Source: Candidatus Thiodiazotropha sp. (ex Epidulcina cf. delphinae) | Lineage (GTDB): Bacteria > Pseudomonadota > Gammaproteobacteria > Chromatiales > Chromatiaceae | Length of the DNA stretch: 36,294 bases | Assembly (NCBI GenBank): GCA_025656505.1 | Contig: JAHXHR010000023.1 | Span: forward strand, 1 to 36,294 | Direction of reading: 5' to 3' | Part shown: in pieces, positions 1,760-34,388 of the stretch | Layout: each line of letters opens with the position of its first letter | Position numbering within the stretch: position 1 is the first letter of the stretch | The notes under the pieces: generated by a model | Seen by the model: only the letters and a program-made list of their open reading frames with translations | Databases searched by the model: none | What the model was told of the DNA's origin: nothing | Made by a program: the position numbers and the translations under genes

Positions 1760-2794
1760 TTAGAACTGATCCTTGTTCTGTGCCTTGGTCTTGGCGTCCA
1801 AACGACTCACGATACCCCGCTGCACCAACTCTTTCAGCGCCTGGTCCATGGTCTGCATACCTGTCGCCTGCCCGGTCTGGATGGCGGAATACATCTGCGC
1901 CACCTTATCTTCGCGGATCAGGTTACGGATGGCAGGCGTGCCAACCATGATCTCCCAGGCGGCGATTCTCCCACCACCGATCTTTTTCAGCAGAGTCTGA
2001 GCGATGACCGAGCGCAGCGATTCGGAGAGCATCGAACGTACCATAGCCTTTTCACCCGCGGGAAAGACATCGATAATCCGGTCGATGGTCTTGGCTGCGG
2101 AACTGGTATGCAGGGTGCCGAATACCAGATGGCCGGTCTCGGCGGCGGTCAATGCCAAACGGATGGTCTCCAGGTCACGCAATTCGCCGACCAGGATGAT
2201 GTCCGGATCCTCACGCAGGGCCGAACGCAACGCCTCGGAGAATCCCAAGGTGTCGCGATGCACCTCGCGCTGATTGATAAGACACTTCTTGCTGCTGTGG
2301 ACGAATTCGATCGGGTCCTCGATGGTGAGAATATGGGAATAGTCATTGTCATTCTTATAGTCCATCATCGCAGCCAGGGTGGTCGACTTGCCCGAACCCG
2401 TGGGTCCGGTGACCAGCACCAGACCGCGAGGCACGTCCACGATCTCCCTGAATGTGGGTGGACAGCCGAGGTCATCCAGGGTCAACACCTTGGAGGGGAT
2501 GGTGCGAAACACCGCCGAGGCGCCGCGCGCCTGATTGAAGGCATTGACACGAAACCGTGCCAGGCCGGGTATCTCGAAGGAAAAGTCGTTCTCGAGAAAC
2601 TCCTCGAAATCCTTGCGCTGCTTATCGTTCATGATGTCATACACCAGGGCATGCACCACCTTGTGTTCCAGCGCGGGAACATTGATGCGCCGAATATCGC
2701 CATCCACACGAATCATCGGCGGCAGACCGGCAGAGAGATGCAAATCTGAGGCGTTATGCTTGACACTGAAGGCCAAAAGTTCAGCGATATCCAT
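1760..2794 (-). CDS. pilT: Type IV pilus retraction ATPase PilT
   Basis: PilT is the hexameric ATPase that depolymerises the type IV pilus and powers twitching motility. The 344-residue product has the usual family length, with MDIAELLAFSVKHNASDLHL at the N-terminus, Walker A GPTGSGKST at residues 130-138, ILTIEDPIEFVH, Walker B PDIILVGELR, the HLVFGTLHT His box, and the retraction signature AIRNLIRE near the C-terminus. A G-rich ribosome site (GGGGGA) precedes the ATG. It is divergent from yggS, as in Pseudomonas, but the shared upstream region here is filled with small mobile elements, so its promoter must lie in the first 160 bp upstream (2795-2953) or within those elements. Confidence 0.97.
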   Translation of the reverse strand: MDIAELLAFSVKHNASDLHLSAGLPPMIRVDGDIRRINVPALEHKVVHALVYDIMNDKQRKDFEEFLENDFSFEIPGLARFRVNAFNQARGASAVFRTIPSKVLTLDDLGCPPTFREIVDVPRGLVLVTGPTGSGKSTTLAAMMDYKNDNDYSHILTIEDPIEFVHSSKKCLINQREVHRDTLGFSEALRSALREDPDIILVGELRDLETIRLALTAAETGHLVFGTLHTSSAAKTIDRIIDVFPAGEKAMVRSMLSESLRSVIAQTLLKKIGGGRIAAWEIMVGTPAIRNLIREDKVAQMYSAIQTGQATGMQTMDQALKELVQRGIVSRLDAKTKAQNKDQF

Positions 2795-2953
2795 TCATTC
2801 CCCCGTTTTGAAAGGCCAAAGGCGCTCGATCAAGCGTGCTGCGCATTGTCTCGCCAACCTGTCATCACTCATGAGACAATACCCGGTTATCGACCTGAAA
2901 ACCGATAAGTTTAGATTGTAAAAACTTAAGATTGACTTGAAATGGCGCTAACC

Positions 2954-3100
2954 CTGCCCATTACCCATAAGTCTGAAATATGGGAACAGACATGACATAA
3001 CCTGTTGTTTTCGTTAGGTTCATATTTTTGTTGGCTGTTAGGGGCATGGTTTGTAACTCGTTGTTTTTAAAGGGTGGAAATATTTGTGGGTAATGGGCAG
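2954..3100. mobile_element. Family E MITE, 147 bp, with 8-bp target duplication
   Basis: Perfect 14-bp terminal inverted repeats (CTGCCCATTACCCA at 2954-2967, its complement at 3087-3100) are flanked by direct copies of CGCTAACC at 2946-2953 and 3101-3108. This is the footprint of a clean transposition. The interior is AT-rich with no convincing reading frame, so it is a non-autonomous element. The 8-bp duplication restricts the parent transposase to families with that spacing, but I do not recognise the ends. It lies in the pilT/yggS divergent intergenic region. Confidence 0.75.
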
Positions 3101-3122
3101 CGCTAACCTGACCGCATCTCCA

Positions 3123-3236
3123 GCGCACCTCATCACAGATTCTGTAACATTCAGAGCCACCCGCATGCGCCGGAACAAGGCACGGCCAACCTCTTCCAGA
3201 CTCGCTTAATGTTACAGAATCTGTGGCGAGACGCAC
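3123..3236. mobile_element. Family C MITE, short copy (114 bp)
   Basis: Imperfect inverted arms at 3123-3156 and about 3203-3236 share the perfect core CACAGATTCTGTAACATT. The subterminal sequence (GTAACATTCAG, CACCCG, CGCCGGAA, AAGGCA) matches the longer copy at 4288-4481, so both belong to one family. The outermost TAGTGTA end found in the longer copy has decayed here, and no target duplication can be recognised. Confidence 0.6.
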
Positions 3237-3295
3237 CAGCAGACTAATATACTAGCACTCTGAAAAAAAAACCGCTCTTAATGCAAAACCGTTCA

Positions 3296-3552
3296 GTGTA
3301 CTGTCTCATACTAGGGGGTGTTCTCAATCATCGTTCGCGGCGTGATTCCGGCCCTTTTCCGCGCTGGCGGCGTTGCGATTCGTTGCAATAGAATGACTAT
3401 TGCGCCTCATCGCGCCTTGCCGGCACGAAAAATGACTCAGAATCACGCTCACTCAGGTAATTGAGAACGCCCCCTAATTACGTGATATCAGAGTGACGCC
3501 GAGCCATCGGCCGCGCCCGGAGGGAGGCACGCATTAGTATGAGACAGTACAC
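3296..3552. mobile_element. Family D MITE, interrupted by a family B element
   Basis: Perfect 18-bp inverted ends GTGTACTGTCTCATACTA (3296-3313) and its complement (3535-3552) bracket this element. The left arm continues on the far side of the inserted family B copy: reading across the insertion gives CATACTAATTACGTG, against CATACTAATGCGTG from the right arm. Without the insert it would be about 94 bp. The right end has a flanking TA (3553-3554 region); the left reads CA. It ends about 11 bp before the yggS start codon. Confidence 0.7.
3312..3476. mobile_element. Family B MITE, copy 1, nested in family D
   Basis: A 161-bp element (3314-3474) begins GGGGGTGTTCTCAAT, ends ATTGAGAACGCCCCC, and is flanked by TA on both sides. 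It is nearly identical to the copy at 8290-8454. The interior is one long imperfect palindrome centred on GCAATAGAATGACTATTGC. It contains no protein-coding frame. TA duplication is typical of IS630/Tc1-like transposases and of some IS5-family groups; the parent element is not in the window. Confidence 0.8.
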
Positions 3553-3563
3553 TAGGGACCAAC

Positions 3564-4274
3564 GTGACCGATAGCACCTTACAGACCCCTGACAGCCTGC
3601 ATCGGCGTTACAATCAAGTACGAGATCGCATCCGTCAGGCGGAAGCCCACTGTCGCCGCGAACCCGGCAGTGTGCAACTCCTGGCAGTCAGCAAGACCCG
3701 AAGTGTCGACGAAATTCGTGCTTTGGCGGCTCTTGGGCAACGCCTGTTCGGCGAGAATTATCTTCAGGAGGCGGTGAGCAAGATGGCCCAACTGGAAGAT
3801 TTGAACCTGGAATGGCATTTCATCGGTCGAATCCAAGGCAACAAGACCCGCCGAATTGCCGAACACTTCCACTGGGTCCACAGTATCGCCAGTCTCAAGC
3901 ACGCCACGCGGCTGAGCGAACAGCGGCCCGCCCATCTCCCGCCGCTCAATACCTGCCTCCAGATCAACACCAGCGGAGAAAACGCCAAAGATGGCTACAG
4001 CGGAAATGAATTAATGGAACGCCTAGCCGCCTATGCGGTGCTACCCAATATCCGTGTGAGGGGGCTGATGACCATTCCCGCACCAGCCGGGAACGAATCC
4101 GCAAGGCGTCAGCCCTTTCACCAGCTACGCACCCTTCGCGACCGTTTGCGCACTGAACGCTTACCCCTGGACACCCTGTCCATGGGCATGTCCGATGATC
4201 TCGAAGCGGCTATCACCGAAGGCGCCACAATGGTGCGTATCGGCGCTGCAATTTTCGGCCCCCGGCAGTATTAA
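3564..4274 (+). CDS. yggS: YggS family PLP homeostasis protein
   Basis: YggS/PLPBP binds pyridoxal phosphate without known catalysis and helps keep PLP and amino-acid pools balanced in the cytoplasm. The 236-residue product has the family length and the fold-III barrel motifs: LLAVSKT with the PLP-binding Lys at residue 44, LFGENYLQEA, WHFIGRIQGNK, QINTSGENAKDG, RGLMTIP and SMGMSDDLEAAI. The start is GTG at 3564. The only upstream purine-rich site (AGGGAC) lies at the very edge of the family D element, so that element may have altered its translation signal. It begins a plus-strand run with proC, yggT and yggU, the standard neighbourhood next to pilT, although a family C element now separates it from proC. 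Confidence 0.95.
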   Translation: MTDSTLQTPDSLHRRYNQVRDRIRQAEAHCRREPGSVQLLAVSKTRSVDEIRALAALGQRLFGENYLQEAVSKMAQLEDLNLEWHFIGRIQGNKTRRIAEHFHWVHSIASLKHATRLSEQRPAHLPPLNTCLQINTSGENAKDGYSGNELMERLAAYAVLPNIRVRGLMTIPAPAGNESARRQPFHQLRTLRDRLRTERLPLDTLSMGMSDDLEAAITEGATMVRIGAAIFGPRQY

Positions 4275-4287
4275 TCAATGAAGTCAC

Positions 4288-4481
4288 TAGTGTACCTCGT
4301 CCTGGATGCTGTAACATTCAGCGTCACCCGAATACGCCGGAATAAGGCATCGCGCCGGGAAGGGGGCATCCACGGTGTTATGTCTCTTGGCAAGAGCCGG
4401 ACCATTCCCGGCGAGGCATGCCTTGTGGTCAACCCCTTCCTGACTCGCTGAATGTTACTGCATCCATGACGAGATACACTA
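4288..4481. mobile_element. Family C MITE, long copy (194 bp)
   Basis: Terminal inverted repeats of 36 bp with three mismatches lie at 4288-4323 and 4446-4481. They begin TAGTGTA and include GTAACATTCAGCG. Terminal TA on both sides fits TA-targeting transposition. No coding capacity. It occupies almost the whole yggS-proC gap, so a transcript from yggS to proC must read through it. Its TAGTGTAC start also resembles the family D ends. Confidence 0.72.
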
Positions 4482-4501
4482 ACCTCCACACAAAAGACAG
4501 C

Positions 4502-5329
4502 ATGAAAAACAGCAACATCACCTTCATCGGCGGCGGCAATATGGCCACCAGTCTAATCAGCGGCCTGATTGCCGACGGTTATGACAAGGCAAGCATCACG
4601 GTCAGTGACCCTGACAGCGAAAAGCTGGCGCAACTGGCTGCCCGCTGCAGCGTACATACCGAGTCTGACAATAACCAGGCCGTCGCCGAGGCCGGTGTAG
4701 TGGTATTGGCGGTCAAACCGCAAGTCCTGGAGCAGGTGGCCAGGAGATTAGCCGAGACCATCCAACAGACCAGGCCGCTGGTGATCTCCATCGCCGCCGG
4801 GGTGAAGGAGACCGCCCTGCGCGAATGGCTCGGCGGTGATGTGGCGTTGGTGCGTAGCATGCCGAATACTCCGGCTATGATTCAATCCGGCGCCACCGGC
4901 CTGCATGCCGGACCCGGCGTCAACCAGACGCAGCGGGATCAGGCGGAGAGCATCTTGCGGTCAGTCGGTCTCACGCGCTGGGTCGATGATGAGTCGCAAA
5001 TGGATGCGGTAACCGCCGTCTCCGGCAGTGGCCCGGCCTATTTCTTTCTGATCATGGAACTGATCGAGGAAGTAGCCGGGAACATGGGACTGGACGAAGA
5101 AACCGCCCGCCTGTTAACCCTCCAGACCGCCCTTGGGGCAGCCCGCATGGCCATGGAGAGCAGTGATTCCCCTGCCGTGCTGAGGCAGAAAGTCACTTCC
5201 CGCGGCGGCACCACCGAACGCGCCCTGGGCATCCTGGAGGCGGGCAAGCTACGCGAACTCTTCAGCGAGGCCCTGCGGGGGGCGGAGGAACGCTCCCGTG
5301 AACTCTCCGATATGCTGGGACATCAATAG
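4502..5329 (+). CDS. proC: Pyrroline-5-carboxylate reductase
   Basis: ProC reduces 1-pyrroline-5-carboxylate to L-proline using NAD(P)H, the last step of proline synthesis in the cytoplasm. The 275-residue product shows the Rossmann motif ITFIGGGNMATSLISGL at the N-terminus, VVVLAVKPQ, the substrate-site RSMPNTPA, the dimer-forming GSGPAYFFLIMEL helix and the family signature TSRGGTTERAL near the C-terminus. I used the ATG at 4502 because the frame upstream runs into the family C element. The upstream AAAGACAG is only a weak ribosome site. The stop lies 2 nt before yggT, which implies co-translation. Confidence 0.96.
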   Translation: MKNSNITFIGGGNMATSLISGLIADGYDKASITVSDPDSEKLAQLAARCSVHTESDNNQAVAEAGVVVLAVKPQVLEQVARRLAETIQQTRPLVISIAAGVKETALREWLGGDVALVRSMPNTPAMIQSGATGLHAGPGVNQTQRDQAESILRSVGLTRWVDDESQMDAVTAVSGSGPAYFFLIMELIEEVAGNMGLDEETARLLTLQTALGAARMAMESSDSPAVLRQKVTSRGGTTERALGILEAGKLRELFSEALRGAEERSRELSDMLGHQ

Positions 5330-5331
5330 CC

Positions 5332-5910
5332 ATGGGCAGCAGTTACCTCACCAATCCGCTGGTATTTCTTGTTCAGACCCTGTTCGGCCTGTATATCCTT
5401 GCGGTCCTGTTGCGATTTCTGCTGCAACTGTTCCGGGCGGACTTTTACAATCCGATTTCGCAGTTTCTGGTGAAAGCGACCAACCCGCCGCTCAAGCTCC
5501 TGCGCCGAATCATCCCGGGACTTGGCGGGATCGACCTCTCGTCACTGATCCTTGTCTGGCTCCTCAAGAGCATTGAGCTGCTGCTGGTGATCAGCATCTC
5601 CGGCAATGCCGTGAGCCTGCTCGGACCGGTTGTCTGGGCGATACCCGAATTGGTTGAACTGCTGATCAATATCTTCCTGTTCGGCGTACTGATCCAAGTT
5701 ATCCTGAGCTGGATCAATCCCGGCAGCTACAACCCGGCCACCGCACTGCTTTACAGCCTCACCGATCCGGTGATGCGCCCCGCTCAGAAGATCCTCCCCC
5801 CCATGGGCGGACTCGATCTCTCACCCATGCTGGTGATGATCGGCCTGGTACTGCTGAAAATGCTCCTGCTGCCTCCGCTGCGGCAGATAACCGGCAGCCC
5901 CTTTCTGTGA
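5332..5910 (+). CDS. yggT: YggT family integral membrane protein
   Basis: The 192-residue hydrophobic protein contains two YggT domains in tandem, each with paired membrane helices and a central amphipathic LRRIIPGLGGIDLSSL or AQKILPPMGGLDLSPM segment. YggT proteins are linked to osmotic or potassium stress tolerance and, in plastid relatives, to membrane organisation; the molecular role is not settled. It is packed tightly between proC (2 nt gap) and yggU (4-nt ATGA-type overlap), which supports one operon. It has no good ribosome site of its own, consistent with translational coupling to proC. Confidence 0.93.
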   Translation: MGSSYLTNPLVFLVQTLFGLYILAVLLRFLLQLFRADFYNPISQFLVKATNPPLKLLRRIIPGLGGIDLSSLILVWLLKSIELLLVISISGNAVSLLGPVVWAIPELVELLINIFLFGVLIQVILSWINPGSYNPATALLYSLTDPVMRPAQKILPPMGGLDLSPMLVMIGLVLLKMLLLPPLRQITGSPFL

Positions 5911-6191
5911 GTTGGCATCGCTGGGAACAGGATGACCTGATCCTGCATCTGCGCATTCAACCCAAGGCATCCAGGGACAGGTTTGTCGGTCCCTATGGCG
6001 AAGACGAGTATAAAGTCACCATCACCGCTCCACCGGTGGACGGCAAGGCGAATGCCGGGTTAATAAAATTCATCGCCAAATCGTTCCGCCTCCCCCGCTC
6101 CCGTGTTTTATTGATCTCCGGCGATGCCTCCCGCAGCAAGTGTCTGCGATTAAAGTCCCCCCGGCATCTGCCGATACCGATGGGGAGCTGA
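5907..6191 (+). CDS. yggU: YggU/DUF167 family protein
   Basis: This 94-residue protein belongs to the DUF167/YggU family, small mixed alpha/beta proteins of unknown molecular function, commonly encoded after yggT. Recognisable parts are LHLRIQPKASRDRFVGPYG, the strongly conserved APPVDGKAN, FIAKSF and VLLISGDASRSK. It starts with GTG at 5907, overlapping the yggT stop codon. After it the standard Pseudomonas-type order is broken: no metX or metW follows. Confidence 0.9.
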   Translation: MSWHRWEQDDLILHLRIQPKASRDRFVGPYGEDEYKVTITAPPVDGKANAGLIKFIAKSFRLPRSRVLLISGDASRSKCLRLKSPRHLPIPMGS

Positions 6192-6295
6192 ACAGCAGGA
6201 TATGGCGTCTGCGCCTCTCCTCGCGTAACATTCCGACTAACCTCGACCTGAGCGGATAGGGTTTGTTCCGGTTAACAAAACAGTAGGTCTTGCAC

Positions 6296-8272
6296 GTGGA
6301 AAAAGTACGATTTCAAGAACAGTTACTGGCTTACGAACAGTGGAAAAAGGATGTCATCAACACCATCGAAGAGTATGCCCCCTGGCTGGAGGAGAACGGC
6401 TTGTCCTCTCCGGATATCCAACACCGCATCGAGCATACCTTGAACAGCCTCAAGAGCGACAAACTGACTATCGCCTTTGTCGCCGAGTTCTCCCGCGGTA
6501 AGACGGAACTGATCAACGCAATCTTCTTTGCTGACCACGGCCGGCGCCTGTTACCGTCAGATGCAGGCCGCACCACCATGTGCCCCACCGAAATCTTCTA
6601 TGACAACGAGCGGGAGGAAGCCTATGTGCGCCTTCTGCCGATCGAGACCCGCCTGCAGGATGTCACGCTCACCCGGTTGCGGCAGGACACCAAGCAATGG
6701 GTCCATTATCCCCTGGAAACGGAGTCTGCGGAACAGATGCAGGCCGCGCTGAGCGAGGTAACCCAGACCAAGACAGTCACCCTCAAGGAGGCGAAACGCC
6801 TCAGCCTCTATAGTTCAGACCTGCATCCGCACCAATCCCGTCCGCCGGAGACGATCGAAATCCCCAAGTGGCGCCATGCCCTGATCAGCTTTCCGCATCA
6901 AATGCTGAAAAAGGGACTGACCATTCTCGACACCCCTGGTTTGAACGCCCTGGGCACGGAGCCGGAATTGACCCTGAATATGCTGCCGGCCGCCCAAGCG
7001 GTGCTCTTCGTGCTCGGCGCCGACACCGGCGTGACCCGTAGCGATATGGAGATCTGGCAACACCACATCAAAGGTTTCCAGAGTGGCCGTCAACGCGGGC
7101 TGATGGTTGTGCTGAACAAGATCGATACCCTCTGGGACGATTTGCGCGAACACGCGGATATTCATGACGCGATACGAAATCAGCAGGTTTCCACCGCAGA
7201 GATGCTGGGCATTAATCCCAAGACGGTATTCCCGATCTCTGCACAGAAAGGCCTTTTGGCCAAGATCAGGAATGAAATGCCACTCCTGGACAAAAGCGGA
7301 TTGTTGGACCTGGAAAACTACCTGGGCCAGGATGTCCTGAATATCAAACAACAGATCGTCCTCGACACAGTCAGTTCCGATGTCGGACAAATGCTGGATA
7401 ACAGTCGCAGCCTGTTGTCGGGCAAGCTCAAGGATACCAAGTATCAACTCGAAGAGCTGGAGGAATTGAGCGACAAGAGCGATGACGTGATCACCAACCT
7501 GATGGAAAAGACCCGCAACGAGCAGACGCAGTATCTACGCGATGTGGAGACCTTCCAGCAGAGTCGCAAGCAATTGAAGCAACAGGCGGATCAGCTTACC
7601 GAAACCCTTAGCCTGGACGCCCTGGACGTCGTCATCGAAGGTTGCAGGAAGGAGATGACCAACAGTTGGACCACCAACGGCATGAAAGGCTCGATGAAGA
7701 ACCTGTTTGAAGAGACCCGCCGCACCATGCTCAAGGTCGTGTCCCAAAGTGAGCAGACCCGCAAGCTTATTCGCTCCATCTATCGCAAATTCCAGAACGA
7801 ACACGGATTCGCCGTCGTACAACCCAAGATGTTTTCTATCGTAAAATATCGGGTGGAGCTGGAACTGCTGCACCAGGAGGCCGAGATTTTCCGCAACAGC
7901 CCCGTGACCGCCATGATGGAACAAAATTTTGTGGTGAAGCGTTTCTTCTCCGCACTGGTAAAACGCGCCCGGGAAATTTTCCAGCGCGCCGATGAAGAGA
8001 TCAATAGCTGGCTCAGCACCACCCTCGAACCGCTGGTCATGCAGATCAAGGATCACAAGGAGATGATGGAGAAGCGATTGAACAATCTGCAGAAAATCGG
8101 GCAATCCCGCAATACCCTACAGTATCGCATCCTCGAACTGCAGGAACAGTACACCGAATCGGCCAGGCAGTTGACCGCATTGCGCAACATGTCCAACCGC
8201 CTCAGCAACAACCGTCCGTTGCATCGCAGCCAACGGCAAAAACCGACGCTAGTGAAACAAAACGCCTCCTGA
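6296..8272 (+). CDS. Dynamin-like GTPase
   Basis: The 658-residue protein has a dynamin-family GTPase domain: G1 AEFSRGKT at residues 63-70, a G2 region around TTMCPTE (about 95-102), G3 DTPGLNALG starting at D212 and G4 LNKIDTLW with N274-D277. The C-terminal half is mainly helical with coiled-coil segments (about 385-440 and 580-640) and no membrane-spanning segment, so it is probably cytosolic or peripheral on membranes. Bacterial dynamins remodel or protect membranes, for example during stress or phage attack; which role applies here cannot be told. I prefer GTG at 6296 to TTG at 6290 because TAGG lies 8 nt upstream. About 100 bp separate it from yggU, and it occupies the place of metX-metW in related loci. 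It carries the full set of GTPase motifs and appears intact. Confidence 0.88.
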   Translation: MEKVRFQEQLLAYEQWKKDVINTIEEYAPWLEENGLSSPDIQHRIEHTLNSLKSDKLTIAFVAEFSRGKTELINAIFFADHGRRLLPSDAGRTTMCPTEIFYDNEREEAYVRLLPIETRLQDVTLTRLRQDTKQWVHYPLETESAEQMQAALSEVTQTKTVTLKEAKRLSLYSSDLHPHQSRPPETIEIPKWRHALISFPHQMLKKGLTILDTPGLNALGTEPELTLNMLPAAQAVLFVLGADTGVTRSDMEIWQHHIKGFQSGRQRGLMVVLNKIDTLWDDLREHADIHDAIRNQQVSTAEMLGINPKTVFPISAQKGLLAKIRNEMPLLDKSGLLDLENYLGQDVLNIKQQIVLDTVSSDVGQMLDNSRSLLSGKLKDTKYQLEELEELSDKSDDVITNLMEKTRNEQTQYLRDVETFQQSRKQLKQQADQLTETLSLDALDVVIEGCRKEMTNSWTTNGMKGSMKNLFEETRRTMLKVVSQSEQTRKLIRSIYRKFQNEHGFAVVQPKMFSIVKYRVELELLHQEAEIFRNSPVTAMMEQNFVVKRFFSALVKRAREIFQRADEEINSWLSTTLEPLVMQIKDHKEMMEKRLNNLQKIGQSRNTLQYRILELQEQYTESARQLTALRNMSNRLSNNRPLHRSQRQKPTLVKQNAS

Positions 8273-8289
8273 AAACCTATATCCTCTAC

Positions 8290-8454
8290 TAGGGGGCGTT
8301 CTCAATCATCGTTCGCGGCGTGATTCCGGCCCTTTTCCGCGCTGGCGGCGTTGCGATTCGTTGCAATAGAATGACTATTACGCCTCATCGCGCCTTGCCG
8401 GCACGAAAAATGACTCAGAATCACGCTCACTCAGCTAATTGAGAACGCCCCCTA
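8290..8454. mobile_element. Family B MITE, copy 2
   Basis: This intact 161-bp element (8292-8452) is flanked by TA. With the TA included, 18-bp ends CTAGGGGGCGTTCTCAAT and complement match perfectly. It differs from copy 1 at only a few positions, including the central palindrome (ATTACG instead of ATTGCG). It lies between the dynamin stop codon and the DUF4426 promoter region. Confidence 0.82.
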
Positions 8455-8460
8455 GGTAAC

Positions 8461-8489
8461 TTCACCCTCCGGTTCCGATCGGCTACACT
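8461..8489 (+). promoter_or_regulatory. Possible sigma-70 promoter for the DUF4426 gene
   Basis: TTCACC (8461-8466) and TACACT (8484-8489) are spaced by 17 bp and each match four of six consensus positions. It starts 6 bp after the family B element, so that insertion defines its upstream border. Weak match only. Confidence 0.35.
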
Positions 8490-8541
8490 AGCAGCGCAAC
8501 CATGACCGGCCTCACAGGCCGGCATCGCCTGGAGGAAATCC

Positions 8542-8985
8542 ATGTCTTTTATCAAATCCCTTATCAGCTTGCTGTCACTGGTCCTCTTCTCCTTTCCCGT
8601 GTTGGCGGAAAACAGCACCACTATTCCCGGCTTTACCATTCATCACAACGCCATACCGACCGCCTCCCTGGAACCATCCATCGCAAAACAATACGGTATT
8701 CAACGCAGTAAATACCGAGGCATGCTCAACGTCAGTGTCATCAAGTCGGTCAAAGGCACCACCGGCGAACCGTCGGAGGCCGTGGTAATGGCCAAGGCAA
8801 ACAACATGCTCGGTCAATTGATCAGCATACCCATGCGTAAAATCACCGAAGGCGATGCCGTCTACTATATCGGCGAGTTCCGTATCGCCGACCGGGAGAC
8901 ACTCAATTTCGAGATTCAGGTTAAACCCAAGGGTGAAACCCGTTTCCACACCGCAAAGTTGAGCCAAGAATTCTATATCGAATAA
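8542..8985 (+). CDS. DUF4426 family secreted protein
   Basis: The 147-residue product has a clear signal peptide (MSFIKSLISLLSLVLFSFPVLA, cleavage near residue 22), followed by a beta-rich periplasmic domain typical of DUF4426, including the YGIQRSKYRGMLNVSV segment and EFRIADRETLNFEIQVKP. The function of the family is unknown. A strong ribosome site (GGAGGAAA) lies 4 nt before the ATG. In pseudomonads a DUF4426 gene closes the pilT-yggS-proC-yggT-metXW neighbourhood, so this gene marks the far end of the same block although metXW is absent. A hairpin follows directly after the stop. Confidence 0.85.
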   Translation: MSFIKSLISLLSLVLFSFPVLAENSTTIPGFTIHHNAIPTASLEPSIAKQYGIQRSKYRGMLNVSVIKSVKGTTGEPSEAVVMAKANNMLGQLISIPMRKITEGDAVYYIGEFRIADRETLNFEIQVKPKGETRFHTAKLSQEFYIE

Positions 8986-9014
8986 ATATCCCCAGACAAA
9001 GCAAGGGGATATTT
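8984..9014 (+). terminator. Hairpin after the DUF4426 gene
   Basis: AAATATCCCC (8984-8993) and GGGGATATTT (9005-9014) form a perfect 10-bp stem with an 11-nt loop, starting within the stop codon. The downstream run is only TACTATTT, so termination may be moderate. Confidence 0.55.
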
Positions 9015-9017
9015 ACT

Positions 9018-9072
9018 ATTTGCCTATCAGTAGTTTAGTATCAGGATGGAGCGGTCAACTGCGGTTTTCAGG
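9018..9072 (+). repeat. Family A right-end fragment
   Basis: About 55 bp match the right end of the full family A copy at 9795-10083, including GGAGCGGTCAACTGCGG and a mutated terminus TTTTCAGG. No left end, core or target duplication is present, so this is a decayed or one-ended remnant in the convergent gap between the DUF4426 and TauE-like genes. Confidence 0.65.
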
Positions 9073-9113
9073 GTGAACCACGGGGCCTTGCATGGCGAGA
9101 TAGGAATGCGCAA

Positions 9114-9794
9114 TCAGAAGGCCCGCACAAGGGTCACCACACCGAACAGGATAACCATCATACCCACCGCCCGGCGCACCCGGATATCCTTTAGCCAACG
9201 GGCAAGACCACCCGCCACGACACCCATGGCGAAAAGATTCGGCAGGGTCCCCAGACCAAAGGCCAACATCAAACCGGCCCCTTTGACCACACCGCCGGCC
9301 GAGACTGTCCACACCAGCATGCTGTAGACCAGGCCACAGGGGATCCAACCCCAGGCCAGACCCAGCATCCAAGCCTGGCCTGGGGTATTGACCGGCAGCA
9401 GCTTTCGCGCAAAGGGTTCGATGTGTGTCCACAGTGCGCTGCCCAGGCGCTCGATCCTGGACAACCCCATCCACCAGCCCCCCAGATAGAGCCCTAACAA
9501 GATCATGAAGATTCCGGCAATCGCCAACAAAATCCGCTGCGCCATGTAGATCGGCACCATCTGCGCCAATAACAGGCCGAGGCCGCCCATGATGCCGCCC
9601 GCCACCACATAGCTGGTGATGCGCCCCAGGTTGTAACCCAACTGATACGGCAGGGTGCTGCTCAGTCGGTTGCGGATCGTTTCCGGAAGACCGAACGTCA
9701 ATGCCCCAATGATACCGCCGCACATACCGGCACAGTGTCCGCCGCCGAGCAGGCCGACTACAAAAGCGGCAAGATAACTTCCCTGCTCAATCAT
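9114..9794 (-). CDS. Sulfite exporter TauE/SafE-like membrane protein
   Basis: The 226-residue protein has about six membrane helices and resembles the DsbD_2-like TauE/SafE group (COG2836), which in proteobacteria often accompanies cytochrome oxidase or copper genes. Diagnostic motifs are GLLGGGHCAGMCGG near residue 18, with paired cysteines, GWIPCGLVYS in the middle and FGLGTLPNLF. Transport of a metal or sulfur compound is plausible but unproven. The ATG at 9794 is fixed by the family-like start MIEQGSYLAAF. That start codon lies in the 5-bp target duplication of a family A element, so the gene has no normal ribosome site: AGG directly abuts the ATG. Before the insertion the start overlapped the ampG stop. 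Confidence 0.82.
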   Translation of the reverse strand: MIEQGSYLAAFVVGLLGGGHCAGMCGGIIGALTFGLPETIRNRLSSTLPYQLGYNLGRITSYVVAGGIMGGLGLLLAQMVPIYMAQRILLAIAGIFMILLGLYLGGWWMGLSRIERLGSALWTHIEPFARKLLPVNTPGQAWMLGLAWGWIPCGLVYSMLVWTVSAGGVVKGAGLMLAFGLGTLPNLFAMGVVAGGLARWLKDIRVRRAVGMMVILFGVVTLVRAF

Positions 9795-10083
9795 CCTAAA
9801 AACCGCAGTTGGACGGGGTGAAGTGTGCGCTTGCGGCGGCGCAGGGCAAGGGGCGTTCCTGCGCATCCCTGCGCTTGCGACACTTGTGCATCTCTGCACG
9901 GCGCGCAACGACGCGGAATAGTCATGCTATTCCAAGGCGTTGCAACGCAGCCATGCGCCGCCGCAAGCGTGCAATTCACCTCGTAGCGTGGTTCACCCAG
10001 CAGGTGAATAGGCAACTCGAAGTCAATAGTTTGCATATCAGTAGGTTAGTATCATGATGGAGCGGTCAACTGCGGTTTTTAGG
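9795..10083. mobile_element. Family A MITE, full-length copy (289 bp)
   Basis: Perfect 17-bp ends CCTAAAAACCGCAGTTG and complement lie at 9795-9811 and 10067-10083. They are flanked by direct 5-bp repeats ATCAT at 9790-9794 and 10084-10088. Nested inside are a second stem (CGCTTGCGGCGGCGCA with its complement) and a central stem around GGAATAG-TCATG-CTATTCC, so the element can fold nearly end to end. The CCTA...TAGG ends and 5-bp duplication match the IS1380 family; from memory ISEcp1 begins CCTAGATTCTACGT. No transposase is encoded. It sits exactly between ampG and the TauE-like gene and supplies the last codons of ampG. Confidence 0.87.
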
Positions 10084-11472
10084 ATCATTGTCAGGACTCC
10101 CGGTTGAGGGGAGATAGCGCATTGCCAGGAGAATCAGGATTAAAACGGGCACCCCCATGGAGGCGGTGATGAGAAAGAAGCCGGCATAACCAAGGCCGTC
10201 CACCATGACGCCGGAGAAACCACCGACGAATTTGGGCAACAACAGCATCACGGAACTGAATAGCGCATACTGGGTGGCCGAATAGGAGACATTCGTCAGA
10301 CTGGAGAGATAGGCCACGAAAGCCGCCGTCGCCAGACCGGCGCTGAGGTTGTCCGCCACGATCACCAGCGTCAGCATCGCAATATTGTGACCGACACCGG
10401 CCAGCCAGGCGAAAAGCAGATTGGTCGAGGCCGCCAGCACGCCTCCCAACAGTAACACCCGCATCACCCCCAACCGGGAAACCAACAAACCACCGACGAC
10501 AGCGCCCAGCAGGGTCATCACCACACCGAGGGTATTGATGATCAGCGCCACCTCGCGCTTGCTGAACCCCATGTCGACGTAAAAGACGTTGGATATGACC
10601 CCCAACACCACATCCGAAATCCGATAGGTGGCGATCAACGCCAGTATCAACAGTGCTTGCCAACGATAACGACCGATGAAATCGGCAAACGGGCTGATGA
10701 CGGCGCCGAAGAACCATTCCGACAGGGTGCGCAGCCCGCCCGGCAACCAACCCTGCCGCTCAATAATCCGGTCCACCGCCGCCTCTTTCTCCAGGGTGGC
10801 CGGATCAGGGTGTACATCGGGTTCGGTGATGAATAAAACGGTAATCACACCCACCAACATCAGGCACGCCATGATCAGGTATGCAGCCGTCCAGGCGGCG
10901 AGATGATACCCACTCTCAGTCGGACTCACCCAGTGGGCCACACCCAGGGCGCCTCCGCCGCTGACGATCATGGCCAATCGGTAGCCGATCATGTAACCGG
11001 CGGCCATGGCGCCTTGCAACCCGACATCCGCCCTTTCGATCCGATAGGCGTCAATGGCGATATCCTGGGTCGCCGAGGAGAAGGCCACTAACAGCGCCAG
11101 CAGGGCAAACGGCCGCAGACCCTGCTGGGGATCGGAGAATGCCAGCCCGCATAGACCGGCAATCACCGATAGCTGAGCCAGCAACATCCAGGCGCGACGC
11201 CTACCCAGTCTGCGGGTCAGCAAAGGCAGCTTCAGCCGATCGACCAGCGGCGCCCAAACCCACTTGAAACCGTAAGCAAGCGCCACCCAACTGATAAACC
11301 CGATGACCGAACGGTCGATACCCGCCTCTCGCAACCAGAACGAAAGTGTGCCGAAAACCAGTAACAGGGGCAGACCCGCGGAAAAACCCAGAAAAAGCAT
11401 GCTCCGAACACCCGGCTGCCAATACACAGCCAGCGCCTGGAGCCAGTCGGCAGACCTCCCGGCTGAAATCAC
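10066..11472 (-). CDS. ampG: AmpG-like muropeptide MFS transporter
   Basis: AmpG imports cell-wall anhydro-muropeptides for recycling across the inner membrane. The 468-residue product has about 12-14 membrane helices and AmpG-type segments: LFLGFSAGLPLLLVFGTLSFWL, the FKWVWAPLVDR loop, SATQDIAIDAYRIE and YSATQYALFSS near the C-terminus. I prefer GTG at 11472 to GTG at 11478, because AGAGG lies 5 nt upstream of it. The final codons (PKNRS and the stop) come from the family A element inserted at 10083; without it, the protein would have ended SPDND and overlapped the TauE-like start codon. The membrane core is unaffected, so it is probably functional. Confidence 0.88.
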   Translation of the reverse strand: MISAGRSADWLQALAVYWQPGVRSMLFLGFSAGLPLLLVFGTLSFWLREAGIDRSVIGFISWVALAYGFKWVWAPLVDRLKLPLLTRRLGRRRAWMLLAQLSVIAGLCGLAFSDPQQGLRPFALLALLVAFSSATQDIAIDAYRIERADVGLQGAMAAGYMIGYRLAMIVSGGGALGVAHWVSPTESGYHLAAWTAAYLIMACLMLVGVITVLFITEPDVHPDPATLEKEAAVDRIIERQGWLPGGLRTLSEWFFGAVISPFADFIGRYRWQALLILALIATYRISDVVLGVISNVFYVDMGFSKREVALIINTLGVVMTLLGAVVGGLLVSRLGVMRVLLLGGVLAASTNLLFAWLAGVGHNIAMLTLVIVADNLSAGLATAAFVAYLSSLTNVSYSATQYALFSSVMLLLPKFVGGFSGVMVDGLGYAGFFLITASMGVPVLILILLAMRYLPSTGSPDNDPKNRS

Positions 11473-11507
11473 GAACACCTCTGAATCAAAAACCGTCGCC
11501 GCATTAT

Positions 11508-11799
11508 CCTAGAATCCTCAGTTGAACACCGTGAAGGGTACGCTTGTGGCGGTGCAGGGCAAGGGTCGCTCCTGCACATCTCTGTGCTTGCAACACTTGT
11601 GCATCCCTGCACGGCGCACAACGACGCGGAATAATTATTCTATTGCAAGGCGTTGTAACGCGGCCATGCGCTGCCACAAGCGTGCCATTCGCGGTGTAGC
11701 GCTGCTCACCCAATAAGTGAATATCTTCAAACCTGATAAAGCTCATATTTTCAAAGCGATTCGTATAGTAGTACATAGCGGTCTACTGAGGATTCTAGG
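11508..11799. mobile_element. Family A MITE, second full-length copy (292 bp)
   Basis: Perfect 15-bp ends CCTAGAATCCTCAGT and complement (11508-11522 and 11785-11799) are flanked by the 5-bp direct repeat ATTAT at 11503-11507 and 11800-11804. The body aligns over its length with the copy at 9795-10083, with the same inner stems and core. Both ends differ from that copy in the same way (GAATCCT for AAAACCG). It lies in the divergent ampG/pyrE region, only about 30 bp from the ampG start, so it probably displaced or replaced upstream signals of ampG. Confidence 0.87.
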
Positions 11800-11872
11800 A
11801 TTATAAGCGCCTAACCCCATCCATCTCCAGACGGGTTACAATGCGCGCCTCCACTCAATTAGGTATCGGATC

Positions 11873-14065: not shown

Positions 14066-14539
14066 CGGCTTGACGACGACTTCCAATACCCGGCGCTCGA
14101 TCTCATCCAGATCAGGAATGATGGCGGGACTGAGATCCAGTTCCACCTGCTGTTTGACCAATGGATCCTGATCGCCTTCCTCCGGGTTCACCGGCAGGAC
14201 ATTCTCGGCGCTGACTCTGGCCAACTTGGGAATCGATTGCACCACCAGACCGATATGGGAAAGGCGTTCATGTCCGCCAAGGGCGTTGAGGATCAGGATC
14301 CTACCCCGTTGTCCCGGGATGGCTACTTGATCGCCCCGCATCCCTTCGAAGGATACCACCGGCATCATCATGCCTCGCCATGCAAGATATCCGAGAAACC
14401 AAGTTGGCGAGGCATTGCCGGCGGGCTCAGGCTGTAGGTAGTCCATCACCTCGGCCACCACTGCATTGGGCAGCAGCAACCGGCACTCGTGCAACGGGAT
14501 GAGTACACTTCTGACCTCCTCGACAACGGCTTGATTCAT
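14060..14539 (-). CDS. chpC: CheW-like protein ChpC
   Basis: The 159-residue CheW-domain protein is probably ChpC, an accessory coupling protein of the Pil-Chp system that links additional receptors to the ChpA kinase. It shows VRSVLIPLHECRLLLPNAVVAEV, GYLAWRGMMMPVVSFE and RILILNALGGHERLSHIGLVVQ, the beta-strand pattern of CheW. The ATG at 14539 overlaps the chpA stop codon (ATGA), so translation is coupled to chpA. In Pseudomonas chpB lies between chpA and chpC; here it does not. Confidence 0.85.
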   Translation of the reverse strand: MNQAVVEEVRSVLIPLHECRLLLPNAVVAEVMDYLQPEPAGNASPTWFLGYLAWRGMMMPVVSFEGMRGDQVAIPGQRGRILILNALGGHERLSHIGLVVQSIPKLARVSAENVLPVNPEEGDQDPLVKQQVELDLSPAIIPDLDEIERRVLEVVVKPS

Positions 14540-17500
14540 TGCTTGCTTTCCGCCAGGACCTCGTTGATGTTTTCCAATAACTCCGCCTCCTGATAGGGCT
14601 TGCCCAGACAACGCTTAACCCCCAGATCCAGGGCTCGTTGGCGGTGTTTGTCACCCACTCGTGAGGAGATCATGATGATCGGCAATCCATAGTATTCGAC
14701 CGAATTGTTGATGTGGCGCGCCAACTCGAATCCGTCCATGCGCGGCATCTCAATATCCAACAACATAATATCCGGCACCTGCTCTTGCAGCAACGTCACG
14801 GCCTCGACGCCATCCTTTGCCGTCACCACATCCATATCATGACGCTCCAGCAAGCGGGTGGTGACTTTTCGCACAGTGATCGAGTCGTCCACTACCATCA
14901 CACGCCGGCGATCCTCAAGGCGTTTTTGCGGCGCCTCGTCAAAAACAGGCGCCGGTGTGGTACGGGTGGCGTCCATGCGCACCAGCGAAGCGAGATCGAG
15001 AATCAATGCGACATGACCGTCCGCAAGGATGGTGCCGCCGGTAATCCAACGTACGCTACCGACCTGTTTGCCGAGGGATTTGACCACTACCTGACGGCTG
15101 CCCAACAACTCATCCACCTGTAATGCGGCTTGGTGCTCGCCAGTCTGTAACAACAGCAGGGGATACCAACGCGTGGCTTCGTGGATTTCATGCCGCCCGG
15201 TGCCCATCATGCGGCCCAGGTAATCGACCTTATAGCGCTTTCCGCCATAGTCAAAGCCACTCTCTTGCCCGCTGTAGCAGGCCTGAAGCGCCTGACGACG
15301 GATCCTGACCACACCACTGATGCTGCCGTGAGGAACGGCGTAAATCTCTTCACCCACACGCATCAGCAGGGCATCGGTAATCGCCAATGTGAGCGGCAAG
15401 CGAATGGTGAACCTGGTCCCGCCCCCCGGATGGGAATCGATCTCCAGCGAACCGCCCAGTTGCTTGACTTCACTGGTCACCACATCCAAACCAACCCCCC
15501 GTCCGGAGATCTGAGTGACCTCCTTGGCGGTGCTGAATCCAGGCAGCAATACACATTGGATCAGGTCATCGTCACTGATCTCCGCATCTGCATCGATCAT
15601 GCCCTGATCCAGGGCGCGCTTACGGATCGCTTCGATATCCAGACCCCAGCCGTCATCGGATAGTGTGATAAGAACGTCGGTGGCTTCACGATCGACATGC
15701 AGAGAGATCCGACCGGTCTCTTTTTTGCCTGCCGAGACACGTTCCTGCGGAAACTCGATGCCATGGGAAACCGCGTTGCGCAGCAGATGTTCGAGCACCG
15801 GCACCATGCGATTGAGGATACTGCGATCGAGTTCACCCTCGATACCGAAACACTCCAGATTGGCCTTCTTGCTCAATTGGCCGGCGGTCTGTCTGACCAG
15901 CCTTTGCAATCTGGGCACCAACTGGGCGAATGGCACCATTCTAGTGCGCAACAGGCCGTCCTGCAGATCGGTGGAGATGCGTGACTGCTGCAAAAGCAGG
16001 GTGTCTGTCTCCCGCTGCAGGTCTCCCAACACCTCGTTGATGTTGCCCAGGTCATTGACTGTCTCAACCAGCCCGCGGGAGAGCTGCTGCATAGTGGAGA
16101 AACGATCCAGCTCGAGGGGATCGAACTCCGCCCTCTCCCGATCATCCTTTTCGTGTTCGCGCTCCCAGCGGTAGATAATCTGCGCTTCGGTCTCGATCTC
16201 AAGGTTGCGCAACTGGATAAACAGACGGGAAACGGTCTGCTCCAGCTCTGAGAGGTTGAATCCGAACACACTGTTCTGTTGCTCCAGACGGGAGCGATAG
16301 ATACTCACCTCACCGGCGTGGTTGACCAGCCGATCCATCAGATCCGCATTGATCCGCACCTGCTCCTTGTTGGGTTTGAAACTTGCCTTGTCCCCATCTT
16401 TCTCAGGATTGAGGAGTTTTGCGATCTCATCATTGAGGGGCAGAACCTTAGCCGACGGCGAAGCCTCAACCGCTTCCTTGGCGGGCTCCCTATCGGGTTC
16501 CCGGATGGTCTCAACCAGTTCGGAATAGGAGGGAGGGATATCGCCTCCGAGCAGATTGTGCAGTTGCTCCACCTGGGTATCCGATGCGGGCACCTTGCCG
16601 GTTTTGGCCATGGTGTCGATCTGAAAGGACAGATGGTCGATGGTATGCCGGGCCGCATCGGTGACCGTGATGATCGGGTCGATCTCCTTTTCCGCGACTG
16701 CCGTCATCAGCGATTCGATGGCGTGGCTGAGATCTCCCACCGGCATGATGCCGGCAAGCCGGGCGCTGCCCTTCAGGGTATGCAGGTTACGCTGGATGCT
16801 TTCTATCGATGAATGATCCTCAAGGTCTTCAAGCCAGTGTTGGAAATTGTTCTCGATCTGCTCGATGAACTCCCTGGCCTCTTCGATGAAGATCTGCACC
16901 AGTTCCTCATCCTCACCCACATCCAGCAGCACCTCATCGCGCAGCAGCATGAAGGAGTCATCGCCCTGTTCCAGGGCTTCCTCGGCAACACCCTCGAGAT
17001 CAAAGCTCTCAACGGGAATCTCGGGTACCACCGCCTCGCCATCAGGCTCCTCCACACCCTCTTCGGATGCCCCTTCAGCGACCGTCTCGAAAGTCTCAAG
17101 CTCCTCCTGCAAATCCGGGTCGACGAGATCGTCTCGCTCGTGTTCCTGAGCAATGGAGCGGTTGATGATCGATTGTAGCTCTTCGATCATGGCATCCGCC
17201 CGACGCACCTTGCCGGTGGCGTAGATATCCTCCGTCTGGGTAGCCAGATGATCGAGGGCCTGGCGGGAGATATTCAGCACCGATTCATTTGCCTCAATCC
17301 GGCCTCTGATCACTCTGTTCAGCAGCGACTCCATGACGTGGCTCAAATCGCCAATCGGCTCGACACCGGCCAAGCGTGAACTGCCTTTGATGGTGTGCAA
17401 TGCACGCAGCATCCCATCCATTGCATGGTGATCCGACGGGCTGTCGCTCCAATGCCGAAAACGCTCCTCCAGGGATTCGAGCAATTCCCGCGACTCCTCG

Positions 17501-20500
17501 ACAAAGATTTCGACCAGTTCGCGCTCTTCGCTCACCGCGAAGAGATCCTCATCATCACGAAGAAAGCTCGTCGGCTCTTCATTGTAGGAAGCGGCATCCA
17601 GGATAGAGGTTTCATCTCCCTCGGCACATGCCTCTTGCGTTTGCGGCTCCTGTTGCAGGCCTTCATCCGGCGACGCCACAACCTCGGCCGGCACCTCAGC
17701 ACCATTCGTCAGGCGGATCGGGTTCTCCAGATCGGACAGCAGCCGAGTCGATCGATGCACCTTCCCGGTAGTGGCCGCATCCTCGAGTTGAACCCCGAGA
17801 ATATCCAGCGCTTGACGGATCAGCATGCGGATCGTCGGTTCGGGAGCGATATCATCGCCCAGGATCCGATCGAACAAGTTCTCCAGGCCATGGCTCAGGT
17901 CACCGATCGGGTTAACGCCCGCCAATCTTGAACTCCCCTTGAGGGTGTGCAGGGTGCGTTTGATCTCATCGATGACAGCGATATCGTCGGGGAATTCCCG
18001 CCATCTGCGGTGGTTCTGTTCGAGGACACCGAGCAGTTCCAGCCCCTCTTCGACAAAGATCTCCACCAACTCCGCATCTTCGCCTACCTCGAACAGATCT
18101 TCTTCCTGTAAGTAGCTGACCGTTGCTTCTGAATCGGCCTGATCCTGTTGCCCGATCGGCTGGTCTAACGGTTCGATCCGCTCTGAGACAACCGCTTCGG
18201 TCGTCTCAATCGAATCAGCCGGAAACGGGGATTCCTCCGCCTCATCCACTGCGAACTCGATTGCCGTCTCTTCCGTAGCAGGGGGCGTCGTCTCCTCGAA
18301 TATCTCGAGGTGTCGCTCCTGCTCGGCCGGCTCTTCCACTCCCGCGAACTGTGACACCTCTACCGACTGCTCCGCCGTTTCGGATGGTTGCGAATCCACC
18401 TCGGCAAGCCCCTCTTCATCGACCTGCAACTGCTCCAAGGCATGGTTCAGGCGGGTGAGATAGGTATCAATATGGGGTTCGGGCAACATCTCCTCGGGCA
18501 GCCAGTTGAGTAGCTTGCGAATATAACCCACACTGTCGTCCAGGAGATCGATGACCGGCGCATCGGCAATCAGTTGACGCTCAAACAATACCCTGGCGTA
18601 GTCTTCCATGGCTTTGCTGAGCATGGCGATCGGGGTGATGCCCGCCATATGTGAGCTACCGTGCAGCGTATGACAGGCACGCACGACCTCATCCGGCACC
18701 GGCACGGCGGAATCGGCGTCCGCCGCCAGTCGGAGGAATTGTTCAATCTCCTGCAGGTGCTCCTCCGACTCTTCGGCAAAGACCTCCAGCAGCTCGGTAT
18801 CGACTTCGATCTGCAGATCGGAGTCCGTGTACTCCTCCAGCAGACTATCTTCCTCCTCGTCATCGAGGGTGAATTCATCGCTCGGCGGCGCTGTTTCCGT
18901 CTCCAGGGACTCCGTGTCTATGGAGAGATCCGATTCCGACGCCGGGAGTTCGGGGAAATCCGTGTCGACCTCCGGTTGCGACTCATGCTCAACCGATTCC
19001 TCTACGAACTGCGCGGGCTCGACCTCGGCGGCGGGGACGACGCTCGACAGCGGTTTGCCATCCGCCAGGGCATACGCCTGATGCTGCAAGAACTCGACAT
19101 CGGTATTGAGGGGGTATTCTCCCCGCTCCTGGCAATCGATCAATGTCGGCAATGTCTCAACCACCCGGTTCAGCAGATCCATCATCCCGGGACTGACCTT
19201 GATGGTCTCGTCGATCAGCCGGTTAAGCATGTTCTCCACCGACCAGGCGAGTTCACCGATCACCTTGGCGCCGACCAACCGGCCGCTGCCTTTCAAGGTA
19301 TGAAATGAACGCCGAAAGGTATTCAACGCATCCCCATCACCCTGGTTGCGCTGCCATTTAGGCAGATACTCCTGAATGGTCTCCAGTTCTTCGCGGGCTT
19401 CTTCGATGAAGATCTCCAGGATCTCAGGATCGATACCCTCCAGCATCGGTTTGTCGGCAGAAGCGATTTCCGCGTCAGGCTCCGATTCCCTTCCCCCACC
19501 GGCCGGGAGCAGCTCCGAGACCTCTCCCGAGAGAATATCGACTTCCGGACGGGGCGGTTCGATCTGCAGGCTGCTGGCGCCCAGTTCCAGATCCGAAATA
19601 TCCTCCTCCTCCAGTTCATAGCCTTCGATATGGTCGGCGCTTTCCACCAGGTCGATATTCTCAGCAGGCTCGGCGTATTCGGAGATCTCCACACCGCCTT
19701 CGCTCACCAGGTCATTCAAGGATGCCTGAGCGATCGCCAGAATCTCACGCCGATCACCCGCCCCATCCACCAGGGTTTCGAGATAGTACTCGATACTGCT
19801 GACCACATCCGCTAGGGAGTTGAGTTGCCGGCGTTGAGGCTGTAAACCGGAATCGATGAGGCTGGCTTGGATAAATTCCCCGGTCTGCGACATGATCTGC
19901 GCCGCATCGCGCAGGTTGAGCATATTCAACGCACCCTCGACCCGCTTGAAACCCTGATGCACACTACTCAATACCGAGCTATCGTCCGTCGCTTCGGCAA
20001 AACTGATAATCGCCTCCTTAGCCCTGGCAATCTCCACTTTCGCTTCGCGTACGGTCTGTTTGATCAGGTTCTGATATTCGCCTTCCGGCATATCCAGTCC
20101 AAGATCGGCCTCGCTCGAATCCTCATCGGCGCCGGGTGGAAAGGTATGCAGGGTACTCAGCGATGATTCGACATAGAGGATATCCCCCGCCATCTCCATC
20201 AGTTCGAACTCTTCGGGCAGCACCCCTTGTTCGACGAAGGTCTTCACCTTGTCCGCCTGACGATTGAGTCTCGAGCGCAACCCCCCCTGCCCGATCATTC
20301 CCAGGGTATCGGCCAGTTTCCGGATCGGCGCTTCGAGGTGGCCCAGCATCTCCATATCGGCCTGCTCGTCCCGCATGAAGAGATCGAGAATGTCCTTGAT
20401 ACGGGTCAGTTCACTGCTGACCGCATCCTTGATCGACTCCGCCAGCTCTGCGTTGGAGCCCGTCAGGCCCAATCGACCCTCGGTCAGTTGCGCCTCGCTC

Positions 20501-32839: not shown

Positions 32840-32949
32840 CCTACTACTGATAAGCAAACTATTGACTTCGATTTGCCTGTTCACCTGCCGGGTGAAGCAG
32901 GCTACGGGGTGAATTGCACGCTTCACCCCGTCCAACTTCGGTTTTTAGG
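32840..32949 (+). repeat. Family A deletion derivative (about 110 bp)
   Basis: This stretch matches the outer part of family A in reverse orientation to 9795-10083 (ACTGATAAGCAAACTATTGA, TTCACCTGCCGGGTGAA). It then jumps over the central core to the other end (TTCACCCCGTCCAAC, TTTTTAGG). The join leaves a perfect 9-bp hairpin CGGGGTGAA / TTCACCCCG (32905-32913 and 32922-32930). The left terminus is lost, and no target duplication is visible. Lying after pyrK, the hairpin could end the pyr transcript. Confidence 0.65.
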
Positions 32950-34258: not shown

Positions 34259-34265
34259 ATTTCAA

Positions 34266-34388
34266 CCTAAAAACCGCAGTTGGCTGCTCCATTCTGATAC
34301 TAATCTACTGATAGGCAAACTATTAACTTCGATTTGCCTATTCACCGATTGGGTGAACCACGCTACGGGGCGAATTGCAGTTTTTAGG
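34266..34388. mobile_element. Family A short element (123 bp) with target duplication
   Basis: Family A ends CCTAAAAACCGCAGTTG and TTGCAGTTTTTAGG are flanked by the 5-bp repeat TTCAA at 34261-34265 and 34389-34393. It retains one outer arm (GATACTAATCTACTGATAG, GGGTGAACCACGCTACGGGG) but lacks the core and most of the other arm. The intact duplication shows that this is a real insertion. It lies between the pgsA-like start codon and the DUF2066 stop. Confidence 0.82.

Follow-up and report, generated by a model that had tools for sequence, protein, structure and literature searches.

Short elements of different families in a 36,294-nt stretch of the genome of Candidatus Thiodiazotropha sp. (ex Epidulcina cf. 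delphinae) (contig JAHXHR010000023.1, positions 1 to 36,294; hereafter the window), and their relatives in many other genomes, carry the same folded module of about 52 nt, the core, at a near-fixed distance from one end, whereas their ends are diverse and belong to different transposases. By their features, these elements are miniature inverted-repeat transposable elements (MITEs). It is tentatively proposed, at somewhat under an even chance, that they form a MITE-like superfamily of non-autonomous elements that combine a common structured-strand module with interchangeable ends, in which the module would be read by a factor and would have a helper role. The initial annotation of the window had described two unrelated MITE families, A and B, sharing a palindromic core, and had proposed that this core was a selected cassette moved between elements with different transposition machinery rather than transposon debris.

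Family B is represented in the window by two elements on the forward strand. Copy 1 (3314..3474, with a single core and located inside an older element) is flanked by TA at 3312-3313 and 3475-3476, as read directly from the sequence, and copy 2 (8292..8452) by TA at 8290-8291 and 8453-8454. Both have the ends GGGGG(C/T)GTTCTCAAT and a duplicated TA. Their cores lie at 3364..3425 and 8342..8403 of the same strand (covariance model R1, 73.2 bits, E 9.2e-16 and 73.4 bits, E 8.5e-16, respectively). The two family A elements, with IS1380-type ends (CCTAAAA / CCTAGAA..CAGTTG), lie on the reverse strand. Copy 1 (9795..10083) is flanked by the duplication ATCAT (9790-9794 and 10084-10088) and has its core at 9891..9954 (62.9 bits, E 2.6e-13). 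Copy 2 (11508..11799) is flanked by ATTAT (11503-11507 and 11800-11804) and has its core at 11609..11667 (53.9 bits, E 3.6e-11). It should be emphasized that model R1 includes rows of both B and A types, so that these E values (8.5e-16 to 3.6e-11) arise partly by construction. The four copies and their TA or 5-bp duplications are thus found where they had been annotated.

The similarity between the A and B cores reaches 75% identity over 51 nt without gaps. Local alignment gives scores of 36 (copy 1) and 31 (copy 2), against a maximum of 24 for 3,000 shuffles per copy that kept both palindrome and composition. This randomised control, which the initial annotation had called for, excludes a chance resemblance of ordinary palindromes and confirms that the two families share a core. 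In the same way, a 23-base core pattern (at most 3 mismatches) occurs four times in the window, against a shuffle mean of 0.00, and 141 times in the whole 3.43-Mb genome of 159 contigs, where the reversed pattern has no occurrence. In this genome, the B copies are near-identical (98-100% for the 40 scored out of 129 candidates). The A copies are older, the best full-length ones being 79-91% identical (40 of 202 candidates scored).

The anatomy of the elements was derived from 183 model matches in 165 loci, an inverted repeat being accepted if its outer span was at least 130 nt. Terminal inverted repeats, a characteristic of MITEs, enclose 147 of these matches; many of the remaining 36 lie near a locus end. 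The distance from the end of the model to the right outer end is 46-54 nt in 128 of the 147 enclosed matches, no distance filter having been applied. On the left, the distance is 44-60 nt for 32 matches (elements of about 160-170 bp), 125-152 nt for 71 (mostly family A, about 246 bp) and 153-180 nt for 33, which belong to elements of about 265-273 bp having another core, in inverted orientation, at a distance of about 107 bp; 11 matches fall outside these classes. In double-core elements, both cores are oriented alike relative to their nearer end. The core is borne out as a shared unit, except that the conserved part is larger than the 48 bp first delimited, as it extends beyond the core over some 50 bp, up to the end. 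Target duplications are also typical of MITEs. For B, TA..TA was found at all 43 distinct own-genome sites examined and an identical 4- or 5-bp flank at none of them; for A-type elements, an exact 5-bp duplication was found in 34 of 58 elements of other genomes; for the other types, TA lies close to both ends in 52 of 86.

The core forms a hairpin of about 52 nt, whose stems vary freely yet stay complementary and whose unpaired pieces are conserved (foot: GCGTT and GCCTTGC; inner loop: CTTG). Among 17 aligned cores, 89.1% of the cells are paired, against 70.8% after shuffling, with 42 double-change cells against 12.3 and a covariation score of 0.468 against 0.130. With 67 matches from 55 loci, in an alignment fitted to the model, the score rises to 0.643 (0.165 when shuffled) and the double-change cells to 241 (75.2 when shuffled). 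None of 500 shuffles equals either value, and double changes affect all 13 pairs (shuffle mean 9.9). Single-core elements fold into one long hairpin with the core at its tip (z -7.8 as RNA for the core strand, in both B and A; z -6.5 for the other strand of B folded as DNA), and the double-core elements L251 and L289 fold into three-way junctions whose stems are almost perfect (z -17.3 and -20.5). Among individual cases, covariation is best illustrated by two A-type cores (L346 at 3136 and L350 at 3774), whose inner stem letters are wholly different but complementary. Furthermore, the family A consensus displays a second conserved internal loop further out in the stem (TTGCACG facing CGCACAC), which, judged by eye, is also present in end cluster 3 (see below).

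The mismatches within the arms that adjoin the core reveal that the fold is kept on one strand. On the core strand, A.C mismatches outnumber G.T mismatches by 426 to 88 when counted over elements, which are not independent. Counted by columns, they do so by 28 to 8 in family A (p 0.0012) and by 21 to 9 in double-core elements (p 0.043). Counted by end cluster, leaving out elements with less than 60% paired arms, A.C exceeds G.T in 16 clusters, the reverse is seen in one and four are ties (p 0.0003). An A.C mismatch corresponds to a G.T wobble on the complementary strand, and the fold is therefore kept on the strand reading GCAAGGC..CAACGC. Such a strand-specific fold fits RNA or single-stranded DNA alike. 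Together, covariation and strand-specific mismatches support the proposal that the core is selected rather than debris.

The tolerance of G-U pairs on one strand and the covariation with conserved internal loops would also be expected if the elements were transcribed and the RNA of the core bound a protein or was processed, as for other palindromic repeats. Between tandem genes, A-type elements moreover show a preferred orientation (25 vs 10; 19/9 in other genomes and 6/1 in the own genome). However, this orientation transcribes the core strand, which is the opposite of the wobble-tolerant one, and the counts are 7 vs 5 for B, 6 vs 6 for the other single-core elements and 4 vs 2 for double-core elements, all of them resting on a simple ORF (open reading frame) finder. 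Double-core elements, besides, have a core on both strands. Rfam 15 gives no match in the window at the gathering threshold, and eight loci compared with Rfam gave only sub-threshold matches of miRNA type, the best one (E 0.0032) being to an unrelated miRNA model. The inconsistent orientation relative to neighbouring genes weakens the idea of an RNA carried in mRNA, and read-through RNA was dropped on this ground; an RNA role as a whole is considered quite unlikely.

As for the ends, clustering was applied to the 129 rows fitting both the left and right distance classes, with a threshold of 12 (the top score of 4,000 shuffles is 11). It gave 21 end clusters. The 129 rows correspond to 119 distinct elements, 70 of which belong to family A (cluster 0 has one row more in the distinct-element count, because loci with two same-strand matches share an identifier), and ten clusters contain at least two distinct elements.

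Two types of ends are shared with transposase-bearing elements. A-type ends are found at both sides of an IS1380-group element from a Polaromonas plasmid, flanked by TTTAA, whose transposase matches NF033539 (E 1.6e-45, 155.5 bits, below the cut-off of 180) and, above the cut-off, PF13701. Related IS1380-group elements with A-type ends occur in L350, L351 and L365, and an A-type element with a core variant adjoins the transposon both in Polaromonas and in L350. An initial check of 15 NF033539 loci had revealed no A ends around a transposase; the Polaromonas and related loci were found later. The left extension of A, judged by eye, may come from its insertion sequence. Ends of the cluster 8 type are found on both sides of ISKpn12, an IS5 family element by annotation from an E. 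coli plasmid (L348, where an ISKpn12 family transposase is annotated at 2568-3328 and the ends match at 2500 and 3326 with at most 4 mismatches); this stretch has no core match. Since A ends are carried by IS1380-group elements and cluster 8 ends by ISKpn12, at least two transposase families appear to be involved. The check suggested initially, i.e., to search with a model of the core and to look at the surrounding ends, thus finds the core within 21 end clusters, two of which are tied to different transposase families. As the same structured interior is associated with ends of different transposases, and ISKpn12 shows no core match, this interior does not appear to derive from an insertion sequence.

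Sequence comparisons also provide one clear case of recombination between interior and ends. The elements of Novosphingobium aerophilum (L170) and Novosphingobium sp. 32-60-15 (L263) are identical at 106 of 122 positions in the right half of their interior, whereas their last 22 nt agree at 10 positions and their ends belong to clusters 9 and 8. More generally, the closest core belongs to a different end cluster (margin above 0.05) for 11 of the 129 rows and does not for the other 118.

Alternatively, all these elements could derive from one ancient foldback element whose core has no partner and whose hairpin is kept only to survive replication and repair, the ends having drifted or having been replaced by recombination with resident insertion sequences. 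Some TA-type end clusters do resemble a graded series, clusters 1 and 4 include both single- and double-core forms, and the Novosphingobium ends show a slight similarity. Drift from one ancestor, which had been raised as a way to refute the shared cassette, could account for some of the TA-type clusters, but it is difficult to see how it would convert ends of IS1380 type (5-bp duplications) to ends of IS5 type (TA). Furthermore, the unpaired GCGTT, CTTG and GCCTTGC conserved across clusters, as well as the strand-specific mismatches, would be superfluous for a mere hairpin. This explanation is regarded as unlikely.

The core is found well beyond the window. A related 23-base pattern with at most 2 mismatches is present in 17 of 96 genomes of the same family, its reversed control giving one match, in one other genome. 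A long gapped pattern of the core retrieves at least 104 stretches in genome contigs, whose titles, among the matches listed, include Nitrosomonas, Nitrosospira, Gallionella, Sulfurimicrobium, Thioalkalivibrio, Novosphingobium, Mariprofundaceae, Planctomycetota and others. Of 299 genomes sampled from the phylum, 45 have matches to model R1 (E<=1e-4), and they represent 31 of 154 genera. Ten genomes reached via the loci, which were picked since one locus already matched, have several matches each, from 7 to 93 (E<=0.001, 150 candidates scored per genome). Three of them, metagenome-assembled genomes (MAGs) titled Planctomycetota or Planctomycetales, have 20, 20 and 24 matches. The species names of MAGs are record titles: environmental MAGs are behind the contigs labelled Bordetella parapertussis, and the label Polarisedimenticolaceae stands on a genome that is also listed in the family of the window. 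Searches with the B core gave five weak plasmid records and no match in phages. Among viral contigs, two core matches were found in one contig and the short pattern gave none; two A-type elements (L267 and L268) lie in a single 25.7-kb contig filed as viral (IMG/VR UViG_2671180042_000002).

This distribution is relevant to another explanation, according to which the core serves an HUH transposase (Y1, associated with repetitive extragenic palindromic sequences or REPs) as hairpin substrate, like REPs for their REP-associated tyrosine transposases (RAYTs), and was captured inside DDE-type MITEs. The strand specificity of the fold would agree with it. So would the Y1/RAYT matches (E<=0.001) in 39 of the 45 core-bearing genomes, against 132 of the 254 others (odds ratio 6.0, p 7e-6), the IS110 control giving only 19/45 vs 78/254 (p 0.17); both counts were made by hand from listings and the statistics ignore kinship. 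However, six of the 45 have no Y1 match, nor has the draft assembly of Novosphingobium aerophilum in a separate search, and RAYTs of curated level are found in only 18 of the 45 (47 of the 254 others). Core-like matches occur at only 3 of 30 Y1 loci (4 matches, all weak, two of the loci overlapping), and neither GTAG nor CGTC is seen at the conserved feet. A HUH/RAYT substrate was thus rejected in spite of the Y1 enrichment, because some core-bearing genomes lack Y1 and, apart from these weak cases, cores are not found next to Y1 genes, and appears highly improbable. Besides, the own genome has the remnant of a Y1 transposase (match at 1501-1797 of L390) at about 140-300 nt from a double-core element (L390, 1933-2101; 26.4 and 25.1 bits).

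The same fold, kept at a near-fixed distance from the end in elements using different transposases, suggests a function for the core itself. In the proposed superfamily with exchangeable ends, a widespread trans-acting factor, other than the borrowed transposase, would recognise the folded core strand and would act from the fixed place of the core beside the end, thereby promoting movement or multiplication of the element. The ends would only determine which resident transposase is borrowed, and changing them could be an advantage: the module would act as a helper site irrespective of the transposase, and the elements would be parasites capable of switching host transposon. Going further, the folded module, as strand-specific DNA, could itself be the selfish unit, pairing with any ends that suit the resident transposases, relying on one widespread factor and providing a common amplification mechanism across Proteobacteria and Planctomycetota; this extension is possible, though rather doubtful.

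Several observations weigh against these proposals. The spacing could reflect inheritance rather than selection. By columns, the mismatches of single-core elements show no significant asymmetry (A.C 7 vs G.T 4, p 0.55), and 11 of the 21 end clusters are made of one element each. The terminal 22 nt of L170 and L263 agree slightly more than shuffles do (10 vs a mean of 5.6, p 0.037), and their ends may therefore be distantly related. Lastly, no transposase was found for B: five DDE_Tnp_1 matches in the own genome have no B ends around them, except at one locus holding a B copy. A plasmid search for a parent of end cluster 1 (TA-type end) also gave no match.

Besides the A and B copies, the window contains other related elements. 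A third element (4288..4481, forward strand), absent from the initial annotation, has TA-type ends (TAGTGTAYCTCGTC..), 36-nt arms that are 92% complementary and a diverged core on the same strand (4369..4431), to which model R1 gives a weak match (16.9 bits, E 0.023). It terminates within the start of the ORF 4418-5329 (P5CR_dimer domain), and the true start of this gene is probably further downstream. A degenerate relative of it (3117-3236; 79% identity over 66 nt) has no core match. The host of the insertion of B copy 1 is the relic of a fourth element (3295..3553, no strand assigned, ends AGTGTACTGTCTCATAC..). At locus L038, a relative of this relic is uninterrupted and has a core as well as matching ends on both sides. 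Fragments of the end or left part of family A lie at 9019-9077, 32844-32949 and 34261-34379 (87-94% identical to 9795-10083 over 34-114 nt), and the model finds no core match in them. Elsewhere in the window, a 2277-codon ORF on the reverse strand (14536-21369) contains internal repeats at 16863, 17478, 18030 and 19391 (repeat families D3 and D8).

No earlier description of the module was found in the open-licence literature, and core stretches used as text queries gave nothing on bacterial repeats among the matches listed. The intrastrand triplex repeats were ruled out as a counterpart, their motif being distinct in the part of the source available (PMC4666352). Closer is the likeness to REP, BIME and REPIN sequences (GTAG and CGTC super-families), which, in the available part of their description, also combine conserved unpaired bases with a variable complementary stem and occur as inverted pairs, in high copy number and in several phyla including Planctomycetes (PMC3733652). 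However, the foot of the hairpin carries GCGTT and GCCTTGC or their complements rather than a GTAG or CGTC tag, the cores do not flank RAYT genes (see above) and, unlike REPs, the core of about 52 nt lies inside longer inverted repeats with target duplications, the only place where it was sought. ERIC, RU, QMITE and similar MITEs share with the present elements long hairpins made by the whole element and a location between genes; in the available parts of the papers on them, they are single families, none of which is described with an interior common to unrelated ends (PMC10969869, PMC2759123).

If the module does aid spread with different transposases, it could help to explain how certain MITE families come to exceed a hundred copies, and the factor should be recoverable by protein pull-down with a 52-nt folded oligonucleotide. 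One covariance model already finds such elements across genera without prior knowledge of their ends.

Another comparison is with the attC sites of integrons, whose functional form is a folded single strand with a covarying stem and conserved unpaired bases. The core resembles them in its folded strand, covarying stem and kept unpaired bases, although the conserved bases differ (as judged by eye). Bacterial MITEs, for their part, are mostly seen as deletion remnants with an irrelevant interior. The present elements are like the IS5- and IS1380-type MITEs in being short, non-coding and present in many copies, with inverted ends and target duplications, and in having ends like those of IS1380-group transposons for A and of ISKpn12/IS5 for cluster 8. 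Unlike in those MITEs, one structured interior is found between ends of different transposases, and ISKpn12 shows no core match: conservation concerns the interior, and it is the ends that vary.

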